A stretch of DNA of 34,374 nt, taken from IMG/VR virus record IMGVR_UViG_3300042307_000526, positions 1 through 34,374 of that record; one strand, written 5' to 3'. Of the stretch, positions 720 through 28,686 are shown piece after piece. This DNA is from a virus. The notes under the pieces were generated by a model, which was given only the letters and a program-made list of their open reading frames with translations, searched no databases and was not told the origin of the DNA. Numbering within the stretch: position 1 is the stretch's first letter; every line of letters begins with the position of its first letter. The position numbers were made by a program, and so were the translations under genes.

Positions 720-1286
720 ATGAAACCACAACACCAACTTATAACATTCGCAGTATTATGCCTGCTATTAATTATTGGCTTAAATCATTGCGCCAAAGAC
801 AAACCGAAACCTATTCCATTTGATTATAAGACAGAAGCGGAACTAATGAAAAAACAATTCGGCATTGAGCAGGCTATTCTACTTAACCAGTTGGAATCAG
901 TAAACAGAAGACTGCAAGTTGCCAATAACGCAAAAGATAGCATTAGACAACGTGAAATATCATTAACCAACACTAACATAGCTTTGATGAAGAAGTTGCG
1001 TAATACGTTGCCAAAAGAATGCGATACAGTCTTCGTGTTGTGTGATGAGATTATCAATGTAAAGGATTCAAGTTATGCTGCATTGTTTAATGCGTTTCAG
1101 TTGTGTGCTGATGGAAGTAGCATTAAGGATAGTTTGATAACCGCCTACAAAGCGGAGAATGTTACCGATAGCACGTTGTTGGTAATCAGCAAACAAGAAA
1201 CGAAACAACAACGCAAAGGTAAGATAGCAGCGTGGTGTGTTGGTGGTGCAATGTTTTTAGTTTGGTTGTTTGTGGGTTTGAAATAA
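720..1286 (+). CDS. Putative spanin-like membrane protein (two TM, coiled coil)
   Basis: A 188-residue protein with an N-terminal hydrophobic segment (about residues 7-24), a long hydrophilic and largely helical region (about 30-155) containing a possible coiled coil, and a second hydrophobic segment close to the C-terminus (about 168-186). Position directly after the holin-like gene suggests a role in disrupting the outer envelope, as Rz-type or unimolecular spanins do. The LNHC sequence after the first hydrophobic stretch is a poor lipobox. I chose the ATG at 720, ten bases after the upstream stop and preceded by an A-rich run; an ATG at 690 would overlap the holin-like gene. A structural or membrane-anchored protein of other function cannot be excluded. 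Confidence 0.5.
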   Translation: MKPQHQLITFAVLCLLLIIGLNHCAKDKPKPIPFDYKTEAELMKKQFGIEQAILLNQLESVNRRLQVANNAKDSIRQREISLTNTNIALMKKLRNTLPKECDTVFVLCDEIINVKDSSYAALFNAFQLCADGSSIKDSLITAYKAENVTDSTLLVISKQETKQQRKGKIAAWCVGGAMFLVWLFVGLK

Positions 1287-1299
1287 ATTAGTATCTTTG
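1269..1299 (+). promoter_or_regulatory. Bacteroidota-type promoter for the 1303-1384 RNA element
   Basis: TTTG at 1269-1272, a spacer of 19 bases, then TATCTTTG at 1292-1299. This matches the TTTG/TAnnTTTG promoter form described for Bacteroides and Flavobacterium. The -33 element lies inside the last codons of the spanin-like gene. Transcription should start near 1303, exactly where the first hairpin of the downstream RNA begins. Confidence 0.8.
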
Positions 1300-1302
1300 C
1301 AG

Positions 1303-1384
1303 CGTTGTGTAGGAGCAACGAAACGAAATTATAACAAAAGCCTTGACTTTAGCGACCTCCTACTCGCTATCGTTGAGGTTTTTT
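1303..1384 (+). ncRNA. Structured RNA element A: kissing-loop leader or small RNA with terminator
   Basis: Hairpin 1 pairs 1303-1307 with 1316-1320 and displays GTAGGAG (1309-1315) in its loop. Hairpin 2 pairs 1350-1355 with 1364-1369 and displays CTCCTAC (1357-1363) in its loop. The two loops are perfectly complementary over 7 bases. Hairpin 2 is nested inside a 12-bp stem (1336-1347 with 1372-1383, including three G-U pairs) whose 3' side runs into a T run, like an intrinsic terminator. A promoter ends 4 bases upstream and an ATG follows 14 bases after the T run. The element could be an independent small RNA or an attenuating leader of the 87-residue gene and the DNA methyltransferase. Elements B (28557-28653) and C (26790-26912) share the layout. 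Confidence 0.72.
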
Positions 1385-1398
1385 AATAACTAACAACT

Positions 1399-1662
1399 AT
1401 GAAACAAGATTTTATTGTAAAAGCAGAAAAAGTAATTGATAGAAAATTTGGTTTTTTTATTAGATGTGATGACAAAAACAAGCCAACAGAAGTATTAACC
1501 GATATGTATTTTGAATTATGGGAAACTGAAAGGATGAATGAGATTTTATCTTTATGTGAAAAACATAATCTTAAATATGATTTTGGATTAGAAAGTTTTG
1601 ATACCAAAATAGATGCTATTGAGCAAGAAATATGTATTGTATCAAATAATTGCGAAAACTAA
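1399..1662 (+). CDS. Hypothetical protein downstream of RNA element A
   Basis: An 87-residue acidic protein with several cysteines (FFIRCDDKNK near residue 22, LSLCEKHN near 52, ICIVSNNCEN at the end) and predicted mixed alpha/beta content. I recognise no family. Its ATG lies 14 bases after the T run of RNA element A, so its expression may depend on readthrough of that element. Its stop overlaps the start of the DNA methyltransferase in a TAATG arrangement, which implies translational coupling and makes it a candidate partner or regulator of the methyltransferase. Confidence 0.75.
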   Translation: MKQDFIVKAEKVIDRKFGFFIRCDDKNKPTEVLTDMYFELWETERMNEILSLCEKHNLKYDFGLESFDTKIDAIEQEICIVSNNCEN

Positions 1663-9663: not shown

Positions 9664-10542
9664 TTATTTCTGCCCGAAACCTTGCAATGCGATGTCTAAG
9701 TCGCTTAAAGCGTTGGCTGCCGCGGCAGATGGTTTAGATGAGCTTTGTTGGCTCTGTGTCGACTTTGGTGGCATTCCGCCTCCATTGTCAGATACTTTCA
9801 AAAACTTGTTGTCGGCCAAGGCCATATCTGTGAGAGTGTCAAGGTCGAGTTCCTTTCCGTTGTCAAAGATAAGCATTTTATCATCATCTTTTGCAACTAA
9901 TTTTAACTTGCCATCAATTTTTTTTATTGCCGCACTTTTTTCAGCAAGTTTCTTATTCAAAAACTCACGCGCAATCTTGCTTTCAACATCCAAACCAAAC
10001 TGACCAGGCAACTTCTTAGATGATATAATGCGGTTAATTTCCATTTCTGTAAACTCGCCATCATATTTTGCAACAATCGCATCGATAGCACTTTGCTTTT
10101 CAAATGCGGCATCGGTTGCAGCCTTGGAAAGTTGTGCGCTTAGTTCGTTAATCTTACGTTCTAACTCTGCCTTATCACCTTTGCCATCAATTTGCTTTGA
10201 TTTCAATTCAGCAATCTTTTTAATTGCTACTTCAACTTTGTTATACGTGTTTGGGTCATCAGTAATCAGTTTGATAGTGTCATCATCAGCGCCATTGTCT
10301 TTTAGCCACGTTGAAACTTTATTGTTAAACGGATCTAATGCCTCGGCTTTAAAATGTTTCTTAATATCGATGTTATTTTTAGCCTCATTTGCACTCATAA
10401 GAGTTGTTAATGATTGGTCAACCTCATCAGGTATCTCAGCAACCAGTTCTTTGATGCCTATAAGTTGTCTGTATGTTTCGGAGTTAAGGTCGAAACCCGC
10501 TTTGGTAAGTAATTTTTTAATTGTATCAGCTAATATTGCCAT
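9664..10542 (-). CDS. Scaffolding protein (predicted)
   Basis: A 292-residue, highly charged and mostly helical protein. A coiled-coil-like stretch lies at about residues 105-150 (KVEVAIKKIAELKSKQ through ELERKINELSAQLSKA). The C-terminal region is low complexity and rich in Ser/Gln/Pro/Ala (QSQQSSSKPSAAAANAL), followed by a short helix. The architecture and position directly upstream of the capsid gene are those of a capsid assembly scaffold that is removed from mature heads. Confidence 0.75.
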   Translation of the reverse strand: MAILADTIKKLLTKAGFDLNSETYRQLIGIKELVAEIPDEVDQSLTTLMSANEAKNNIDIKKHFKAEALDPFNNKVSTWLKDNGADDDTIKLITDDPNTYNKVEVAIKKIAELKSKQIDGKGDKAELERKINELSAQLSKAATDAAFEKQSAIDAIVAKYDGEFTEMEINRIISSKKLPGQFGLDVESKIAREFLNKKLAEKSAAIKKIDGKLKLVAKDDDKMLIFDNGKELDLDTLTDMALADNKFLKVSDNGGGMPPKSTQSQQSSSKPSAAAANALSDLDIALQGFGQK

Positions 10543-11901: not shown

Positions 11902-13621
11902 TATCTACAATAGTAGCACCAAATATCTGATTAAACAATATATCCTTAGTGTTTATTTCTTTCAATTTCTCAACTGCAAATCCATTCAATACCGCTTGTT
12001 GCTTTGACTTATCTAAGCGGTTAAATTCAGGATTCTCAGCGTATGCACGTTGAACAAAGTCTTGAATGTATGTGCTTATAACCGCATCAGTTTTAGAAAG
12101 CATTTTATTGCTTACCAATAACGCTTTTTCCTCTTGCGTTTTACCACTGGCGGGGTCAAGGTTGAATGCATCGCGCAACATATCTTGCATTGCGATGTCG
12201 TTAGGAAATCTCTTAACGATGTATTCCAACTCTTGCGCACTTAACACCGCATCGTTTAAACCGCTATCCTTAGCCGCTTTAATCTCCTCAAGTATTAGTT
12301 GACTGCCTAAGATATCAAACTGATTTGGCACAACGCAAACGGGCACCATTGATTTAATGGTTTCAACATCGTAAATCTCTTTATATCTCCACATCGCACA
12401 CAACTCAGCAATGTTTGTCATTATCGTTCCCATATCAACTGCAACACCATAAAATGTGTTGTTTGTTTCATCTCTATCGTATGCCTTTGCAACACCACTT
12501 TGAGCCGCTGGTTGTGCTTCTAAAAACTGCATATTGATGGCAGCTAACGAACGATAACGCATTTCGTTTATGCGTTTATCCTGCAACTCAGCAATCTCAG
12601 TTTGTTTTTGAATGTAGCCCATCGGTGGAGTCGGTGCAGGCACTTCTCCCATCGTTGTTTTAGCAGGTCTTACACGTATAGTTTCGTATGGAGATGTCGG
12701 TATCTGCCCATCTTTACACTTACTATTAGTACATGGCACACGCTCTTGCTCTTTGGTAAACGTAAAGCCTTGACCGTTGCATGACTTACATTGCTCATCT
12801 TGGTAAATCCAAACCGTTGAATGTATGTGCTGCGTTATTTCAGCACGTAAATCACTAAACTCAACCGTAGCCACGTTTAACCATGGTAACATTGCTTTTA
12901 ATCTGCTTTGATATTCGCGGCCAAGTTCCTCTTCCTCTTCTACAACACCGCCAATTGTAAATCCAGGGAATACACCTAAGCCATGGAATGTTTCCTCAAC
13001 TAAATCAAACCCGTTGCCTTTCTTTTTCTTGCGCCACTTTGACCAACTAATCTTATCAATCGAATAATATACATTGCCATTGTCATCATCTTTGTAAACG
13101 ATTGAATTGCCCTCGTAATGGTAAACAATGCTGCTTGAATTAATTACGTAAGGTTTAGGCTTCTTATATTCAGTTGGCTCAGCTTGTTCCGCCCACACAA
13201 TAATAACACCGTTTGCATCAATTGTATATTGTTTTAAGCCCACTTGAAAAGCCCAATTCATTAACGACTTGGAAGCGGTAAAGTTTTTAGTAAGGTATGT
13301 TTTTAAGTCCTCATCTTTGGCAATTCTTGGATATTGCGTGTCGGGAAACTTTAAAAAGAATCCATCAGCACGTTGTATTTTATTAAGTGCATTTAATACG
13401 CGATCATAAACTTCGCTAAATACCGCCTCATAAGTTTTCTTGCGATATTCCTTAACGATAATGTGTTCGTTAGGTCTTACCTCATCAATTAATTTACGCG
13501 GATATTCTCCATCGGAATAGTATTGAAAGTTAACATACTCCTCATCCTCTATATGTGGATTACGTGCGACATCAGCAACGATATCGGCATCAATAATAAT
13601 GTATTTGTTTTCGGTTTCCAT
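11885..13621 (-). CDS. Portal protein (predicted), with a cysteine cluster
   Basis: A 578-residue protein whose size, position before the minor head protein and long helical C-terminal half fit the portal ring through which DNA enters the head. It contains KPYVINSSSIVYHY at about residue 157, a GFTIGGVVEEEEELGREYQSRLK region near 220-242 and a helical region after residue 330. Four cysteines (278, 281, 297, 302) in CKSCNGQG and CTNSKCKDG look like a zinc ribbon of DnaJ-like type inserted in the middle. The next gene starts directly after its stop. Portal identity is inferred from layout, as no short diagnostic motif exists. Confidence 0.75.
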   Translation of the reverse strand: METENKYIIIDADIVADVARNPHIEDEEYVNFQYYSDGEYPRKLIDEVRPNEHIIVKEYRKKTYEAVFSEVYDRVLNALNKIQRADGFFLKFPDTQYPRIAKDEDLKTYLTKNFTASKSLMNWAFQVGLKQYTIDANGVIIVWAEQAEPTEYKKPKPYVINSSSIVYHYEGNSIVYKDDDNGNVYYSIDKISWSKWRKKKKGNGFDLVEETFHGLGVFPGFTIGGVVEEEEELGREYQSRLKAMLPWLNVATVEFSDLRAEITQHIHSTVWIYQDEQCKSCNGQGFTFTKEQERVPCTNSKCKDGQIPTSPYETIRVRPAKTTMGEVPAPTPPMGYIQKQTEIAELQDKRINEMRYRSLAAINMQFLEAQPAAQSGVAKAYDRDETNNTFYGVAVDMGTIMTNIAELCAMWRYKEIYDVETIKSMVPVCVVPNQFDILGSQLILEEIKAAKDSGLNDAVLSAQELEYIVKRFPNDIAMQDMLRDAFNLDPASGKTQEEKALLVSNKMLSKTDAVISTYIQDFVQRAYAENPEFNRLDKSKQQAVLNGFAVEKLKEINTKDILFNQIFGATIVDNGASE

Positions 13622-14491
13622 TTAATAAGTATGGCGTTCTGGAGCCCATCTTCTTTTGGGCTGTTGTAAAAATTTATATCGCATATTCATTCTTAATGCA
13701 TGAATTTGCACAAGGTTGTTATAGATTGTTAATTGCACTTCACTTATTCTGTTACCTCCAATAGATACACCACAATAATCATCTTTTAAATCCTTTAAGC
13801 GCATTGTTTTAGTTGAATCCATTGGCCAAAAAGTAGGATGATACATTTCTTCATGGCAGTCAACACCTAACTGGCACATTGCAATCCATAACGGTAACTC
13901 ATCGGGTATGCATCCAGCAAACTCAATGTTCTTTACACGTATGTTTTCAAAGTTTTCTACCCACTTTGTAAACAATGGATGTCCTTTTTTCCACCATATA
14001 AACTCGGAATGCACATTCCAAATCTTTTCAGTTGTGAATCCAAATGCCTCTTTTACTTCTAATAAGTTAGCCCATTGCTTTGAATCGGCAGTAATCTCAT
14101 CACTATCATAGTTTTTAAACCCGCTATTTTTTACCGCGAAATCAATACCTTTTAGCGATGCGATTACCTCGTTTATTTTATGGTTGTTAATCATAATCAC
14201 ATCGGCATCAATAAACAACGTATAGTCATACGGTGTTAACTCATCCATGTGCGCCTTTGCTTTGATGTAACAAGTTTCGTTATCATTAAGCGTGTAGCAA
14301 TGTGGCGGGATTTCTTTTATCTCTGTAAACAATGCTTTATAGTCTTCATCTAAACGCGTGATGGTATCGGCTTGCGTTACTAATGTTATAGGCAAATGAC
14401 AACCGTTGGCACGTAATGACATCGCAAGGTTTGCAGCCATACATCCATAGTTCTTATGGCCTATTCCTATTAAAAGTATTCCAGTTGTCAT
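13622..14491 (-). CDS. Glycosyltransferase (GT-A fold, GT8-like)
   Basis: A 289-residue enzyme. It begins with MTTGILLIGIGHKNYG, a nucleotide-sugar binding beta-alpha start, and carries the metal-binding DxD motif as LFIDADVIM (D95, D97). Later segments HSEFIWWKKGHPLF and CIPDELPLWIAM fit the acceptor half. It would transfer a sugar to DNA, a virion protein or host surface glycans. Placement between the baseplate and portal genes, coupled to both (ATGA overlap upstream, portal stop and start adjacent), suggests virion glycosylation. The substrate cannot be read from sequence. Confidence 0.8.
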   Translation of the reverse strand: MTTGILLIGIGHKNYGCMAANLAMSLRANGCHLPITLVTQADTITRLDEDYKALFTEIKEIPPHCYTLNDNETCYIKAKAHMDELTPYDYTLFIDADVIMINNHKINEVIASLKGIDFAVKNSGFKNYDSDEITADSKQWANLLEVKEAFGFTTEKIWNVHSEFIWWKKGHPLFTKWVENFENIRVKNIEFAGCIPDELPLWIAMCQLGVDCHEEMYHPTFWPMDSTKTMRLKDLKDDYCGVSIGGNRISEVQLTIYNNLVQIHALRMNMRYKFLQQPKRRWAPERHTY

Positions 14492-15381
14492 TCGCAGTTA
14501 GAATTAAAGTTGTTAAATGGCGTTTCAAAGATAGTAAAATCTGAGCTCCAAATGTTTACGTTCTGCATTATTTCGGGATAATTATTGTTATACTCATCCT
14601 CAAATCGTGCTTGTATTTGAGTTGTAAAGTTTTCGGGTGTGAAGTAAATGCCATCATGATTCAATGCAATTACTAAGTTTTGATGCACTTCCTCTGGCAC
14701 CTCATCGACATAACCTTTATAACGCTTTGCCAATCGTGCCGATAATAATTGGCGGCTTCCATCAGGTCGAACGTAAACAGTTTTGTCGCTGCTAATGTTT
14801 GGCTCTTTAAAGTATAATGGTAAGCGGATATAGTTTGTTGTCGGTATAAGCAAAGGTGGTGCAGGAGGTGGATTAATAACAACAACCGCAGTCCTATAAT
14901 AAAAACCAAATGCGTTTGATGTGTTTGTGTATGCAAGTTTAGTGGTTAAGCATTTATCATTAACTTTTTTAAAACATTGATTTGATATAAAAAAACTTGG
15001 CTCCGAAACACCACACGCAAACGCTAACTGAAAACAATCTCCATCAAAAGTATTATCAAGTAAATTAGATAACACAAACGAAAAATAAATATTGTAAATC
15101 GGCACTCCGCTTTGTGTTCCATTAGTTACAATGCTTGTTATTACATCGTTTAAAATTATACCAGTTCCACTTGTCGGCACTTTATAAACTGTCACGCTAC
15201 TTATTACTTCACTTGATACTATTTGCGTTTGAAAAGCCACATCGCCAACCTCATAAATCGGTAAGCAAAAGTCTTTTTGAATTCCGCATTCGGTATCAGT
15301 TACATACTCGGGTATGCCTAAGTCATTCGCCAGGTTGTAAAATGTTACAAAGCTATTAGGTATGTTTAATATCGCTGCCAT
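14488..15381 (-). CDS. Putative baseplate or tail-tip structural protein
   Basis: A 297-residue protein that is beta-rich, with many Thr/Asn/Ser and several cysteines in the first half (TECGIQKDFCLPIYEVGD, GDCFQLAFACGV, NQCFKKVNDKC). A proline stretch (INPPPAPPLLIP) at about residue 168 separates it from a C-terminal part with TVYVRPDGSRQLLSARLAKRY. It starts at the TAATG overlap with the hub gene. Family not recognised; a structural tail-tip role is inferred from position. Confidence 0.6.
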   Translation of the reverse strand: MAAILNIPNSFVTFYNLANDLGIPEYVTDTECGIQKDFCLPIYEVGDVAFQTQIVSSEVISSVTVYKVPTSGTGIILNDVITSIVTNGTQSGVPIYNIYFSFVLSNLLDNTFDGDCFQLAFACGVSEPSFFISNQCFKKVNDKCLTTKLAYTNTSNAFGFYYRTAVVVINPPPAPPLLIPTTNYIRLPLYFKEPNISSDKTVYVRPDGSRQLLSARLAKRYKGYVDEVPEEVHQNLVIALNHDGIYFTPENFTTQIQARFEDEYNNNYPEIMQNVNIWSSDFTIFETPFNNFNSNCE

Positions 15382-25045: not shown

Positions 25046-26608
25046 TTAAAATGGTTGTTTATCTTCATAATCGCTATAAGATTCATATTCAACTGATTGT
25101 GGATTTTCCCTAACAAATAGGAATGGAGTGCCTTTCTTTTTTTCAAGGTAATTATTGCTATTAAATGGAAAATAATACTTATTTGGTTGTGGTGTCATTT
25201 TCATTTCGTTTTTAAGCACTTTAAGAATGTAAGACATCTTTTCTCTATCATGTTCAAACCACTTTTCTTTAATATCTTTAGCAGTTGCTTCAAACTCATT
25301 TACATCATTATTGTTAAAAAAGTCTTCGATGTATATTTCAAGTTCTTTACGCAATCCGTTTTTACTTTCTTTTTTGATAAGCTCCAGCGAATCAGTTTGT
25401 ATTTCCTCCTGCGTAAATACCATTCGAGAATTTGAAAAGTCAATTTCAGGCAGTTGTTCCAAATATTTAAGGAATTTAGGAATCTCGTTAAACAAATCAT
25501 TTTCGATGTTGGTGTTTTTTTTGCCAACAATCGGGTTAATTTTCCTAATCCAAAAGCGAATCTCTTCGTCATCTATTCGCATAAAATCGGTTTCCTTATT
25601 TGTGCAAACAATAATTTTACCAAAGAATGGCACGCTGTAATGTTGAACAAACTTTTGCGATACTGAAATAGTTTTTGCAGTTGCTAAGGATTTAAGTTTT
25701 TCAACAACGTTCTGCTTTTCAATTACGGTTTCATCAATCATAATGATGTTTTTAGTTGCGTAAGCATCGTTAAAAGAACTCGTTAAGTCACTTGGATTGA
25801 TAAGTGTCGAATTCTCGCCAAATAGCATCTGAATATAATTTAAAAATGTTGTCTTACCAGTTTCTCTTTCAGTTGAAACTAACGAAAGCACTGGTAATAT
25901 TTGACATGGATATTCATAAAGTAACTTCATGTACTTTAAACCTAACTCTAACTGCTCACCAAATATGTGACTTAACAAACCAAGTGTTACACTGATGTCA
26001 TCTGTGTAAACAGTATCACTATATTTTGTATGTGGGAATTTAGCGTACAAATTATAGCAGTTGTTTTTTGATGGAATAAAAGTCACATTATTAGGTATAA
26101 TTGTGAAGTCATCAAACTTATAAATTTTGCAAAGTATATTTTTGGTATGATCTTCTTTTATTTCATCTTTTTTCCAAGACTTTAAAATAACATTAGTTCC
26201 TGAATAGCGGTCATCTTTTTTAATTACTTTAAAATAATCGGAGCCAACGCGAATATAAGGTATTTCGTTTTGCATTATATTATAAGAAACGTGACTCATT
26301 GCTTGAAAGTAATCGCCTTTAAATTTAACCGTTGTCAACAATATAAATTTACTGAAGCTTTGTCCAGTTGCTAAATCAAATGGGTTTGACTTCTTAATGT
26401 CAATCTTTCCGTTTTTATTTAAAATAAAATTAGGGCTTTTAGACAAATCACTTGCATCACTAACTGGATAAGTTGCTTCAGTATCTGAAAACGAAATACA
26501 TTTTTTATCGCCCTCAAATATTTGCTGCATCGTTCCAAATTCGTTAAACCAATCTATTGGATTGTAGATTGAATTCTTTTCTGGTTTCTTAAATTTGTTC
26601 ATTTTCAT
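25046..26608 (-). CDS. Replicative helicase, SF3/D5-type (primase-helicase C-terminal part)
   Basis: A protein of about 520 residues. Walker A lies in STERETGKTTFLNY (near residue 246), Walker B in KNIIMIDE (near 288), and the SF3 motif C in GKIIVCTNKETDF followed by an arginine-rich RFWIRK stretch. The N-terminal half has no clear polymerase-type primase motif, so priming is probably done by the AEP-like protein at 26932-27813. The C-terminus has a winged-helix-like region (TAKDIKEKWFEHDREKM). The ATG at 26608 or 26602 is used; the start overlaps the upstream small gene by about 20 bases. The origin candidate is directly downstream. Confidence 0.85.
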   Translation of the reverse strand: MKMNKFKKPEKNSIYNPIDWFNEFGTMQQIFEGDKKCISFSDTEATYPVSDASDLSKSPNFILNKNGKIDIKKSNPFDLATGQSFSKFILLTTVKFKGDYFQAMSHVSYNIMQNEIPYIRVGSDYFKVIKKDDRYSGTNVILKSWKKDEIKEDHTKNILCKIYKFDDFTIIPNNVTFIPSKNNCYNLYAKFPHTKYSDTVYTDDISVTLGLLSHIFGEQLELGLKYMKLLYEYPCQILPVLSLVSTERETGKTTFLNYIQMLFGENSTLINPSDLTSSFNDAYATKNIIMIDETVIEKQNVVEKLKSLATAKTISVSQKFVQHYSVPFFGKIIVCTNKETDFMRIDDEEIRFWIRKINPIVGKKNTNIENDLFNEIPKFLKYLEQLPEIDFSNSRMVFTQEEIQTDSLELIKKESKNGLRKELEIYIEDFFNNNDVNEFEATAKDIKEKWFEHDREKMSYILKVLKNEMKMTPQPNKYYFPFNSNNYLEKKKGTPFLFVRENPQSVEYESYSDYEDKQPF

Positions 26609-26777
26609 CAATTTGCTCTATCATTTCTTTTGCAAATTCTCTGGCAACAAAACATATAATTTTTATCATATCTTCATCAAAATTGTCGACATTTTCTTTA
26701 GTTGTTGCAATAAAACTTTGCATTGCTAAACCTGCAAAGTAATCAAATCTTTCTTGTTTTGTTTTTTTGTTTTTCAT
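26589..26777 (-). CDS. Small protein downstream of RNA element C
   Basis: A 62-residue protein beginning MKNKKTKQERFDYFAGLAMQ. The DYFAGLAMQSFIA and AREFAKEMIEQ segments match a small protein type often found in phage and integrative-element replication regions of Bacteroidota; its function is unknown to me. The ATG lies 12 bases after the U run of RNA element C, so expression may be controlled by that element. It overlaps the helicase start and probably is translated with it. Confidence 0.72.
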   Translation of the reverse strand: MKNKKTKQERFDYFAGLAMQSFIATTKENVDNFDEDMIKIICFVAREFAKEMIEQIDENEQI

Positions 26778-26789
26778 AATTTTAAAAAT

Positions 26790-26912
26790 AAAAAAGCCCT
26801 AGTGATTAAGTTTGCTTACGAAGCAAGTAAGGGATTGACTCCTTACACTTAATCATTAGGACTTCTAATGTTTTAATGTCAATCTATGTTACTTCGGTTC
26901 GTGACTCCGATG
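26790..26912 (-). ncRNA. Structured RNA element C: multi-branched terminator-like leader or small RNA
   Basis: Read on the minus strand, a 17-bp stem (26863-26847 with 26811-26795, one mismatch) encloses two hairpins: 26846-26841 with 26832-26827, and 26826-26821 with 26817-26812. A run of six T follows. The loop of the first inner hairpin contains GTCAATC (26839-26833), complementary over 7 bases to the upstream GATTGAC (26884-26878). A small 5' hairpin (26910-26907 with 26897-26894) has ACGAA in its loop, complementary over five bases to the loop region of the last hairpin. The whole lies about four bases after a promoter and 12 bases before an ATG. The layout parallels elements A and B. 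Confidence 0.75.
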
Positions 26913-26915
26913 TTG

Positions 26916-26947
26916 CAAATGTACTTTATAATTATCTATTTTGCAAA
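26916..26947 (-). promoter_or_regulatory. Promoter of RNA element C and the helicase operon
   Basis: Read on the minus strand: TTTG at 26947-26944, 20 bases, then TACATTTG at 26923-26916. It overlaps the stop codon of the primase gene. Transcription should begin close to 26912, at the first base of RNA element C. Confidence 0.75.
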
Positions 26948-27813
26948 TAAGTAGGAAAATTTAAACCCTTATCCACCATTTCTTTGGCAGTTTTTTTATA
27001 AACATCTGGCTTTTTAGATAAATAGCTTTGCGAATCAATTAAGTTATTAATAAGTGAAATGGCATCATTATAATCAATATAATTCGCGCCAACAAACCCT
27101 CCGAGCAAGTACGAAGTTGCACGTAAAATAATATGCCCAGTATCGGTTATGGTATTAATACGTTTAGCAATAATCTTTTCAATAACCGAAGTTTTATCAT
27201 CAATAATATATTGTTTAGTCGCAGGCCTAACGATTTCAATATGTTTTGTTGACCACGTTTGCGCATCGTTTCTATGTAGGATGTCGGCATCATAACTGAT
27301 AAACATTGGTAGGATACAATTCTTTGGTGCTGTGTCAAACCCATTGTAACAGTTAAGGTGTCGCTCAATTCCTGCATAGTATTGTTTAAATTCATCTACC
27401 GAAGTGCAAATCGGAATCTTAACCAGTGCGCGAACACCATGCCTTGAAGCGGATAGCCACGCGGTTATAATATATTTATATTCATTAAATAAATACTCTT
27501 TGAATTCAACTGCCACATCGCTTTCTAAATGGTCAAAATCCAAAACAAGTAATCCAGTCCAATGTTGAATGTTGGAATATTTACGCGGGCCATCAACATA
27601 AACACATGGAGTAAACGAGTATAATTTTGACTTTAATGCTTGCTTTGTCGCCATGTCTTTTTTTTCCTCCGCAATCCTTATCTCCTCAAATACATTGCGG
27701 ATATCTTTTTTTGGCGTTCTAATCGCGTTAATTAGATATTCAAGCGTAACACTACCAAGTGGAGTGCTACGTTTGATATCGGCTTCGTAATAGTTAAATG
27801 TTATTGGTTGCAT
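26932..27813 (-). CDS. BT4734/VirE N-terminal-type primase (AEP fold)
   Basis: A 293-residue protein of the BT4734-like family, a Bacteroidota branch of archaeo-eukaryotic primases. Recognisable are HWTGLLVLDFDHL (D92, D94 as metal ligands) and SASRHGVRALVKIP (about 121-134), a conserved AEP segment with a catalytic His. The N-terminal part IRTPKKDIRNVFEEIR and a C-terminal helical part flank the core. It probably makes primers for the SF3 helicase product of the next gene; no DNA polymerase is seen in this genome. The start is 13 bases inside the end of the upstream nuclease gene. Confidence 0.85.
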   Translation of the reverse strand: MQPITFNYYEADIKRSTPLGSVTLEYLINAIRTPKKDIRNVFEEIRIAEEKKDMATKQALKSKLYSFTPCVYVDGPRKYSNIQHWTGLLVLDFDHLESDVAVEFKEYLFNEYKYIITAWLSASRHGVRALVKIPICTSVDEFKQYYAGIERHLNCYNGFDTAPKNCILPMFISYDADILHRNDAQTWSTKHIEIVRPATKQYIIDDKTSVIEKIIAKRINTITDTGHIILRATSYLLGGFVGANYIDYNDAISLINNLIDSQSYLSKKPDVYKKTAKEMVDKGLNFPTYLQNR

Positions 27814-28397
27814 AGTTTATCCATATAAAAATTATAATTAACTTCATGCACCTTTGAATAATCTTTACCGTTGTGGGGGTAAATTATATGTTCAAATATT
27901 GGTTTGTTCATAAAAGCAAACTGATAGCCTAATGATTTCTTTCTTACTTCACCAATATCCGCAATTTTACAAATAAAAGCATTAAAAGTATGGTGATTGC
28001 ATAATTCAGAATGCCTGTCTTGATGCCATTTAGTAAATTTTTCACCATTACAATAAACACTATCTTCATTATCAATAATTGTTGATCTCTCATTTAAAAT
28101 AAAATAGTTATAAGATAATGCAGGATAAATAAATATAAGTGCTTTTACAAATTTGCCTGGTCTATATTCCCATTCTGCTTTTGTATATCTATTAGCTTGC
28201 AAAACATATTCACCAATTTCCTCGCCTCTTTTTTTATCTGGCTTTTTGCATTCAATACCAAAATGATATTTACCATCAATAGTCAAAAGCAAATCAATTC
28301 GGTTTTTTTTACACTTGCTTACTACTTCTCTTTGCACTTCAAAATACTTTTTAAAATGGACTACCATTTTATCAACCAATTCTTTTTCTGTTTTCAT
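27801..28397 (-). CDS. PD-(D/E)XK nuclease-like protein
   Basis: A 198-residue protein. The core is RIDLLLTIDGKYHFGIECKKPD (D35, E49, K51), then EEIGEYVLQANRYTKAEW with a Gln and conserved tyrosines, matching the layout of small PD-(D/E)XK nucleases. It could be a Holliday junction-type, restriction-like or repair nuclease. It is coupled to the upstream small gene by a four-base overlap and lies directly before the primase. It differs from the VRR-NUC protein (24244-24774) and the YqaJ-like protein (28661-29284), so three nuclease folds are present in this region. Confidence 0.72.
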   Translation of the reverse strand: MKTEKELVDKMVVHFKKYFEVQREVVSKCKKNRIDLLLTIDGKYHFGIECKKPDKKRGEEIGEYVLQANRYTKAEWEYRPGKFVKALIFIYPALSYNYFILNERSTIIDNEDSVYCNGEKFTKWHQDRHSELCNHHTFNAFICKIADIGEVRKKSLGYQFAFMNKPIFEHIIYPHNGKDYSKVHEVNYNFYMDKLCNQ

Positions 28398-28543
28398 TTC
28401 TTAACCGGATTAAGTTTATTGTACTCGGTTTGATTGTAATTAAAGCCATCGACAACCATTGCTTTTTGGATTGCATGATAAATTGTTTCGGCCCATGTTG
28501 GAATGATTTTTCCGCTGGGGGATTTTACTAAAAATATTTTCAT
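28394..28543 (-). CDS. Small protein downstream of RNA element B
   Basis: A 49-residue protein beginning MKIFLVKSPSGKIIPTW, with AETIYHAIQKAMVVDGFNY in the middle and a lysine end. No family is recognised. I use the ATG at 28543 and not one at 28615, because the longer form would run through RNA element B. The ATG lies 13 bases after the U run of that element. The stop overlaps the nuclease start in ATGA. Confidence 0.65.
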   Translation of the reverse strand: MKIFLVKSPSGKIIPTWAETIYHAIQKAMVVDGFNYNQTEYNKLNPVKK

Positions 28544-28556
28544 ACTTATAAGAATT

Positions 28557-28653
28557 AAAAAAGCCCTTAAAGATTTGCAAGGGGTCTCACTTCCTTGCGC
28601 CTCTATAAGGGCCAATATTGTTATGTTTCTATAATGTGAGACCGAAACAACAA
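28557..28653 (-). ncRNA. Structured RNA element B: kissing-loop leader or small RNA with terminator
   Basis: Read on the minus strand: hairpin 1 pairs 28653-28649 and 28648-28644 with 28629-28625 and 28622-28618 (a two-base bulge between) and shows GGTCTCAC (28643-28636) in its loop. Hairpin 2 pairs GCAAGG (28598-28593) with CCTTGC (28582-28577) and shows GTGAGACC (28590-28583). The loops are perfectly complementary over eight bases. Hairpin 2 sits in an 11-bp stem (28612-28602 with 28573-28563, one mismatch) followed by a run of six T. Promoter four bases upstream, ATG 13 bases downstream. Same layout as element A, with different sequence. Confidence 0.78.
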
Positions 28654-28655
28654 TG

Positions 28656-28686
28656 CAAACTTAATGAATCTTTCCCAAAGTAGCAA
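28656..28686 (-). promoter_or_regulatory. Promoter of RNA element B
   Basis: Read on the minus strand: TTG at 28686-28684, 20 bases, then TAAGTTTG at 28663-28656. It spans the end of the YqaJ-like gene; the first three bases of the -7 element are its stop codon. The start of transcription should be near 28652, at the beginning of hairpin 1. Confidence 0.7.

Follow-up and report, generated by a model that had tools for sequence, protein, structure and literature searches.

The window, which here means the whole 34,374-base stretch of an IMG/VR phage record, contained three elements with a common layout, designated A (positions 1292 to 1384, plus strand), B (28663 to 28557, minus strand) and C (26923 to 26790, minus strand). 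A preliminary description of this DNA had given them the shared order promoter, upstream segment, terminator with nested hairpin, T run and ATG, and all of these features were confirmed in the three elements. Each had a complete Bacteroidota promoter of the form TTG-N19/20-TAnnTTTG, which is the flavobacterial sigma-A layout, with a spacer of 19 nt in A and of 20 nt in B and C. Since the TAnnTTTG box lies at -12 to -5 in the F. psychrophilum transcriptome (PMC9723704), transcription was predicted to start at 1304 in A, 28651 in B and 26911 in C. The terminators consist of an outer stem, P2, and an inner hairpin, P3, whose loop holds a segment (S1b) complementary to the upstream segment (S1a); the helix between the two is referred to as S1 or the kissing helix. 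The folding energy of the terminator hairpin was -19.7 kcal/mol in A (z of -6.2), -24.1 kcal/mol in B (z of -3.9) and -31.3 kcal/mol in C (z of -7.2), and the ATG start codon was located, respectively, 14, 13 and 12 nt past the T run. On inspection, each element was a single unit without tandem repeats.

The promoter of element A (1270..1299, plus strand), assigned by sequence and spacing, comprises TTG at 1270-1272, a 19-nt spacer and TATCTTTG at 1292-1299. Folding indicated a 5' hairpin, P1, at 1303..1320 (CGTTG at 1303-1307 with CAACG at 1316-1320), with S1a, GTAGGAG (1309-1315), inside its loop, and a terminator at 1337..1384 with P2 at 1337-1347 and 1372-1382 and a T run at 1379-1384. P3 is formed by TAGCGA (1350-1355) and TCGCTA (1364-1369), and its loop contains S1b, CTCCTAC (1357-1363). 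An 87-aa open reading frame (ORF; 1399..1662) and an N6/N4 DNA methyltransferase gene (1650-2405; N6_N4_Mtase in a Pfam scan) follow on the same strand.

Element B has its promoter at 28656..28686 on the minus strand (TTG at 28686-28684, 20 nt and TAAGTTTG at 28663-28656), and the TAAGTTTG box overlaps the stop codon of the upstream gene. P1 (GTTTC/GAAAC; 28625..28648), which was supported by covariation, carries S1a, GGTCTCAC (28643-28636), in its loop. The linker from P1 to P2, AACATAACAATATT (28614..28627), shares its first three bases with P1 and fits the A-rich linker motif of the element family. In the terminator (28557..28613), P2 is located at 28613-28602 and 28573-28562 and the T run at 28562-28557, and the loop of P3 (GCAAGG at 28598-28593 with CCTTGC at 28582-28577) contains S1b, GTGAGACC (28590-28583). 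This terminator is nearly symmetric; its antisense strand (28530-28618, plus) scored 33 bits in the model search, and it may stop transcription both ways. The operon past B comprises, on the minus strand, a 49-aa ORF (MKIFLVKSPSGK...; 28394..28543), a gene at 27801-28397 that matched HSDR_N weakly and, at 26932-27813, a primase-like gene of the BT4734 type (BT4734-like_N), the latter two identified by the Pfam scan.

Element C, also on the minus strand, has its promoter at 26916..26946 (TTG at 26946-26944, 20 nt and TACATTTG at 26923-26916). A small 5' hairpin, TCGG...CCGA (26894..26910), is present, and the kissing segment lies outside it: S1a, GATTGAC (26884-26878), is followed by the linker ATTAAAACATTAGAA (26877-26863), the two spanning 26863..26884. 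The preliminary scheme had omitted these 5' hairpins, which enclose the upstream segment in A and B and are separate from it in C. The terminator of C (26790..26862) has P2 at 26862-26847 and 26811-26795, a T run at 26795-26790, P3 (GTAAGG at 26846-26841 with CCTTAC at 26832-26827) with S1b, GTCAATC (26839-26833), in its loop, and an extra hairpin at 26826-26812. A 62-aa ORF (26589..26777) and a DUF5906 helicase-like gene (25046-26611; Pfam scan) follow. The reported change between the P3 stems of B and C (GCAAGG/CCTTGC and GTAAGG/CCTTAC) was correct, the two copies being only weakly alignable; model R1, built from B with no S1 information, recovered C at 15.8 bits.

In relatives, the C slot was occupied by a C-type element, a D-type element or none, with the small ORF present or absent. 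D-type loci (L008, 2007-2130; L011, downstream of 6870; L152, about 12430-12560) had the kissing segment at the 5' end without P1 and paired beside an extra hairpin, and covaried across three lineages (CTTACTCACT, CTTATTCAGT and CTTATTCGAC with their partners). The D-type linker contains an ATG with a short frame. A leader-peptide attenuator, a reading prompted by this ATG, was rejected: A and B have no internal ATG, and an early stop in one D relative counts against it.

The loop pairings of 7, 8 and 7 nt proposed for A, B and C were all present, and dinucleotide shuffles gave probabilities of 0.0004, 0.0008 and 0.008, respectively, for the P3 loop to find an equally long match upstream. The kissing helix, computed as a duplex, had an energy of about -7 to -16 kcal/mol. 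A loose scan of both strands of the window ranked A, B and C above the other candidates. The wider model R2 likewise placed B, C and A ahead of every other site, the antisense echo of B aside, this ranking being partly circular as R2 was trained on matches that included B and A-like relatives. Loose descriptor scans without promoter and T-run rules were dropped, as they gave as many matches in shuffled sequence.

A pairing-blind analysis was performed on leaders from viral relatives of the primase-like, methyltransferase and DUF5906 proteins. All leaders with a promoter, a strong terminator and an ATG were listed blind to loop pairing, and copies of >80% similarity were removed. A helix was counted as strong when the Watson-Crick pairing of the 5' segment with the terminator interior scored ≥16, and 5' segments permuted among the leaders served as the control. 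Such a helix was detected in 19 of 27 independent viral leaders, compared with an expected 2.8 and a maximum of 8 in 200 permutations; the same outcome was obtained with fewer loci. The loop pairing is not due to chance. No leader with a kissing helix was found in 1.08 Mb of bacterial loci around DUF5906 relatives.

The P1 hairpin scored ≥11 in 16 of 26 independent elements, whereas swapping the flanks gave an expectation of 6.8 and never more than 13 in 500 trials, and the 5' segment is usually located in its loop. Because of this location, A and B form loop-loop kissing complexes; the C and D types are without a P1 hairpin enclosing the 5' segment. A linker motif resembling AAAACATT was present in 10 of 41 linkers, compared with 0.28 in shuffles, and is a candidate site for contact with a protein or within the fold.

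Covariation was counted in a B-type alignment of 13 sequences against the named structure of P1, S1, P2 and P3. Pairing was kept in 99.7% of 390 pair cells, and in 100% of those in S1, compared with at most 47% when partners were slid by 1 to 3 columns. Two-sided changes were detected at 16 of the 30 pairs (4/8 in S1, 7/11 in P2, 4/6 in P3 and 1/5 in P1), the clusters of elements not being phylogenetically independent events. The covariation in homologous phages on which the preliminary description had let its proposal depend was found, half of the 8 kissing pairs having two-sided changes, and its claim that pairing is kept while sequence is not was borne out by this alignment and by the blind leaders. 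The S1 variants were GGTCTCAC/GTGAGACC, GGTTCGAC/GTCGAACC, GATTCCAC/GTGGAATC and GCTCTCACA/TGTGAGAGC in the B type, GATTGAC/GTCAATC (window) and GATTCAC/GTGAATC (relatives) in the C type, and CTTACTCACT/AGTGGGTAAG and CTTATTCAGT/ACTGGATAAG in the D type; ACCCGCCAA, CTACCAC, AGAGTCTCA and GGTCAGAGC were further kissing words, each with its complement. RNAalifold analysis of 49 matches recovered P1, P2 and P3, with compensatory changes at 20 of 20 predicted pairs, in an alignment that was fitted to the R1 structure and hence biased towards it.

At least 60 further elements were detected in IMG/VR. Scanning for the promoter with GGTCTCAC and its matched partner yielded 41 contigs, compared with none for a scrambled partner of the same composition; GTAGGAG with its partner was found in 43 contigs, 27 of which had both promoter and terminator, and strand-swapped kissing words formed real elements in 5 contigs, all of these counts being lower bounds since exact words were used. 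The GGTCTCAC pattern was absent from 251 bacterial genomes of the same family as a Flavobacterium genome. A Myroides match (L237; E of 9e-4) was rejected as a family member, being a simple long palindrome without element features; this contig has a long inverted repeat around AACCTTTTTAATGAGTAGAAGTT at 1034-1125, near a DUF5906-type gene. The elements had been said to belong to no named family, and no Rfam 15 match at the gathering threshold was obtained for the window and 12 other element-bearing loci; B gave chance matches alone, to microRNA-type and unrelated sRNA families, at E≤10. No description of the element was found in the literature searched on kissing loops, attenuation, put and Bacteroidetes phages, which covered few subscription papers, and this points to a family that is undescribed in that literature.

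Elements were carried by the cultured Flavobacterium phages snusmum, mumin, hattifnatt, hemulen, snork, lillamy and 11b. The covariance-model search that had been suggested for further matches detected, with R2, a snusmum element absent from its training (70 bits; E of 1.3e-13). With the 3.5-kb region of the window or the DUF5906 protein as the query, no DNA similarity to annotated phages was found, and snusmum was reached by DNA similarity solely from a distant element. Three elements were located in snusmum: one at 9708, ahead of a helicase, one at 13649, ahead of an HNH-type endonuclease, and one at 14684, ahead of gp043 and a helicase/VirE operon. Hattifnatt likewise has three, two were present in the stretches read of each of hemulen, mumin and snork, and lillamy and Flavobacterium phage 11b have one. 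At the 14684 slot, the kissing words were GTGGAACG/CGTTCCAC in snusmum and mumin and GTGAGACG/CGTCTCAC in hattifnatt, hemulen, snork and lillamy, with the versions otherwise nearly identical, so that the difference is a natural two-pair compensatory swap. A conventional terminator was located just upstream of the element's promoter in the helicase/primase slot of the cultured flavophages. The terminator of the element is consequently not needed there to end the previous operon, and RNAs of the replication operon are expected to begin at the element and to pass its terminator. In lillamy9-2 (MN812213, 12776-12836), the element and HNH endonuclease cassette present in other Lillamyvirus and Muminvirus genomes is missing and a ParB-like gene without an element takes its place, which provides a natural empty comparison.

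The elements occupied fixed slots, mostly one to three per genome. B-like elements preceded replication genes and homing endonucleases, and A-type elements preceded Dcm-like, N6 or Mom-like modification genes or others, these names coming from a reading of protein starts and not from a family search. The region at 1399-2405 of the window and the loci L312 to L353 have a variable cargo site behind a nearly constant A-type element, in which N6, Dcm-like and other methyltransferases and a Mom-like gene swap with one another; this slot looks like an anti-restriction cassette site. An identical element was found before two different HNH-type genes, and element and cargo are separable. The preliminary description had each element heading an operon with a small ORF first, which holds in the window but not across the family: in relatives, the element is often directly before a methyltransferase, helicase, primase or homing endonuclease, and in some the DUF5906 gene follows with no small ORF between.

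Kissing words of different slots within one genome combined freely with no coordination, as would be expected of cis-acting units; a test for avoidance of crosstalk between slots was negative, with most combinations of words occurring. Among 37 independent elements (L001 to L277 and the cultured phages), GTGAGA/TCTCAC was present in 7 and 55 element pairs shared a 6-mer, compared with 3.8 in shuffles. The words GTGAGA/TCTCAC, GTGGAA/TTCCAC and GTCGAA/TTCGAC came up repeatedly, in both strand orders, in elements that are unrelated. Some of this recurrence is accounted for by common descent and by the need for a loop not to pair with itself. A pairing requirement acting purely in cis does not explain the use of words in both strand orders, and the recurrent words might hint at contacts in trans.

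These results suggested, with a probability that we put at about 0.58, that the elements are a large family of cis-acting transcription attenuators of Bacteroidota phages in which kissing competes with the terminator stem P2. By sequence, a promoter and then an intrinsic terminator stand ahead of a gene, which is the general arrangement of an attenuator, and an attenuator position before phage DNA-metabolism operons, methyltransferases and homing endonucleases is well supported. The ATG usually lies 4 to 26 nt past the T run, a gap too short for a promoter, so that every transcript of the next gene must cross this terminator. Given this lack of promoter room and the separate upstream terminator at the cultured slot, attenuation is the best-supported role, and there is good support for inferring it. 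That kissing would oppose termination, like any trigger for it, is something we only infer.

In the proposed mechanism, the RNA would start at the element's own sigma-A promoter and the 5' segment would be made within the first 15 to 35 nt, usually being shown in the P1 loop. The A-rich linker would be next and then the terminator, in which P3 would display the loop complementary to the 5' segment, with P2 completed last, right before the T run. Since P1 and P3 would emerge complete ahead of the 3' strand of P2, the kissing helix (7 to 12 bp) could form first, trapping the 5' strand of P2 in a closed ring of P1, linker, P2a, P3 and kiss. This ring should hinder the winding of the last, G+C-rich terminator pairs and so favour readthrough; where kissing failed or was too slow, P2 would zip and transcription would stop. 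The output of the downstream operon would thus depend on whether kissing or P2 closure prevails, and transcription speed or a factor reading the linker or the fold might tune it. One might go further and, tentatively, regard the element as a topological antiterminator in use throughout these phages, a 5' hairpin that clasps the terminator loop before the stem winds, with words that are interchangeable by paired substitution and could serve many operons with no dedicated protein or ligand; this seems possible rather than probable.

The preliminary description had offered an attenuator or a new small-RNA class, and the attenuator position stood while a trans-acting small RNA became less likely. 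Such an RNA, stand-alone, of 80 to 125 nt and closed by 5'/3' kissing, with the downstream genes expressed through leaky readthrough, would fit the compact form with a 5' hairpin at about +1 and a 3' terminator hairpin, and the recurrent words in both strand orders could reflect its contacts in trans. We consider it unlikely: the loop sequences change freely and vary between the slots of one genome with no cross-coordination, whereas a trans-acting RNA should keep its target sequence, and the elements immediately precede start codons and, in the replication slot of the cultured phages, follow a separate terminator. Because of that location, the elements control their operon in any case.

P2 and P3 would make a good terminator alone, and linkers of 12 to 19 nt may allow kissing and P2 together, so that kissing could instead stabilise the terminated RNA. 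All helices can indeed be drawn together, and the T run and a strong P2 are always kept. Type III toxin-antitoxin loci have the order promoter, pseudoknotted RNA, terminator and gene, which the layout of the elements resembles; the elements differ in having no tandem RNA repeats, and no ToxN/AbiQ-type toxin was found by the Pfam scan of the genes after A, B and C, which for B and C covered the genes beyond the small first ORF. A role of kissing in strengthening termination or protecting the RNA, with constant, unregulated readthrough setting stoichiometry, is nonetheless distinctly improbable, as a plain stronger stem would suffice and the retention, in a separate hairpin, of 7 to 12 complementary nt by elements that are very diverse suggests a competing function. 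A ligand-binding riboswitch with a terminator-embedded aptamer, for which the architecture of HMP-PP/thiS (PMC6478431) and the enriched A-rich linker motif could be cited, is very doubtful given that all four helices vary in sequence with no invariant nucleotide block able to form a pocket and that the cargo genes have no common metabolic pathway. An HK022 put-like site for processive antitermination at downstream terminators would suit a promoter-proximal two-hairpin RNA at phage early-type operons but hardly suits elements that each have their own terminator, lack sequence conservation and serve many separate operons, compared with the two early promoters described for put (PMC9378689).

Read as attenuators, the elements place a tertiary contact where it could decide between termination and readthrough. 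The family adds a widespread, strongly covarying structured RNA to a virus group with almost unstudied gene regulation, and with up to three clear copies per cultured Flavobacterium phage, kissing-loop gating is open to a direct test with paired mutations. In addition, the elements flag DNA methyltransferase and homing endonuclease genes as portable cassettes, and they could find use as compact attenuators whose sequence can be programmed.

Several known systems share parts of this design. HK022 put is, like the elements, a phage cis-acting two-hairpin RNA near a promoter that alters termination, in its case RNA-only antitermination via the zinc-binding domain of RNA polymerase; it has no terminator of its own, binds the polymerase and acts on distant terminators (PMC9378689), whereas the elements carry theirs. 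The hairpins that delay T4-type homing endonucleases also place an RNA structure immediately before phage genes, but these T-even hairpins hide the ribosome binding site and so act on translation (PMC2988022), whereas the elements use an intrinsic terminator and a kissing contact. Put and the T-even endonuclease hairpins are functional neighbours of the elements, not relatives. For the fhsA motif, a weak riboswitch candidate, it was suggested that the terminator loop pairs with a preceding hairpin and blocks termination (PMC11109978); that pairing is speculative, the motif occurs in bacterial formate-tetrahydrofolate ligase leaders, and no sequence or phage link to the elements was found. The HMP-PP (thiS) riboswitch has a terminator-embedded aptamer in which a pseudoknot accompanies suppression of termination, and it shares with the elements, whose folds are predicted, a pseudoknot with the terminator loop, competing ON and OFF folds and an operon-leader position (PMC6478431). 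It is associated with thiamin genes, binds a ligand and has a loop with conserved nucleotides, whereas the elements have loop sequences that differ completely from one another, no conserved pocket, a separate 5' hairpin and a cargo of phage genes (DNA methyltransferases, helicases, primases, endonucleases and small ORFs). Overall, the HMP-PP riboswitch is the nearest published architecture.
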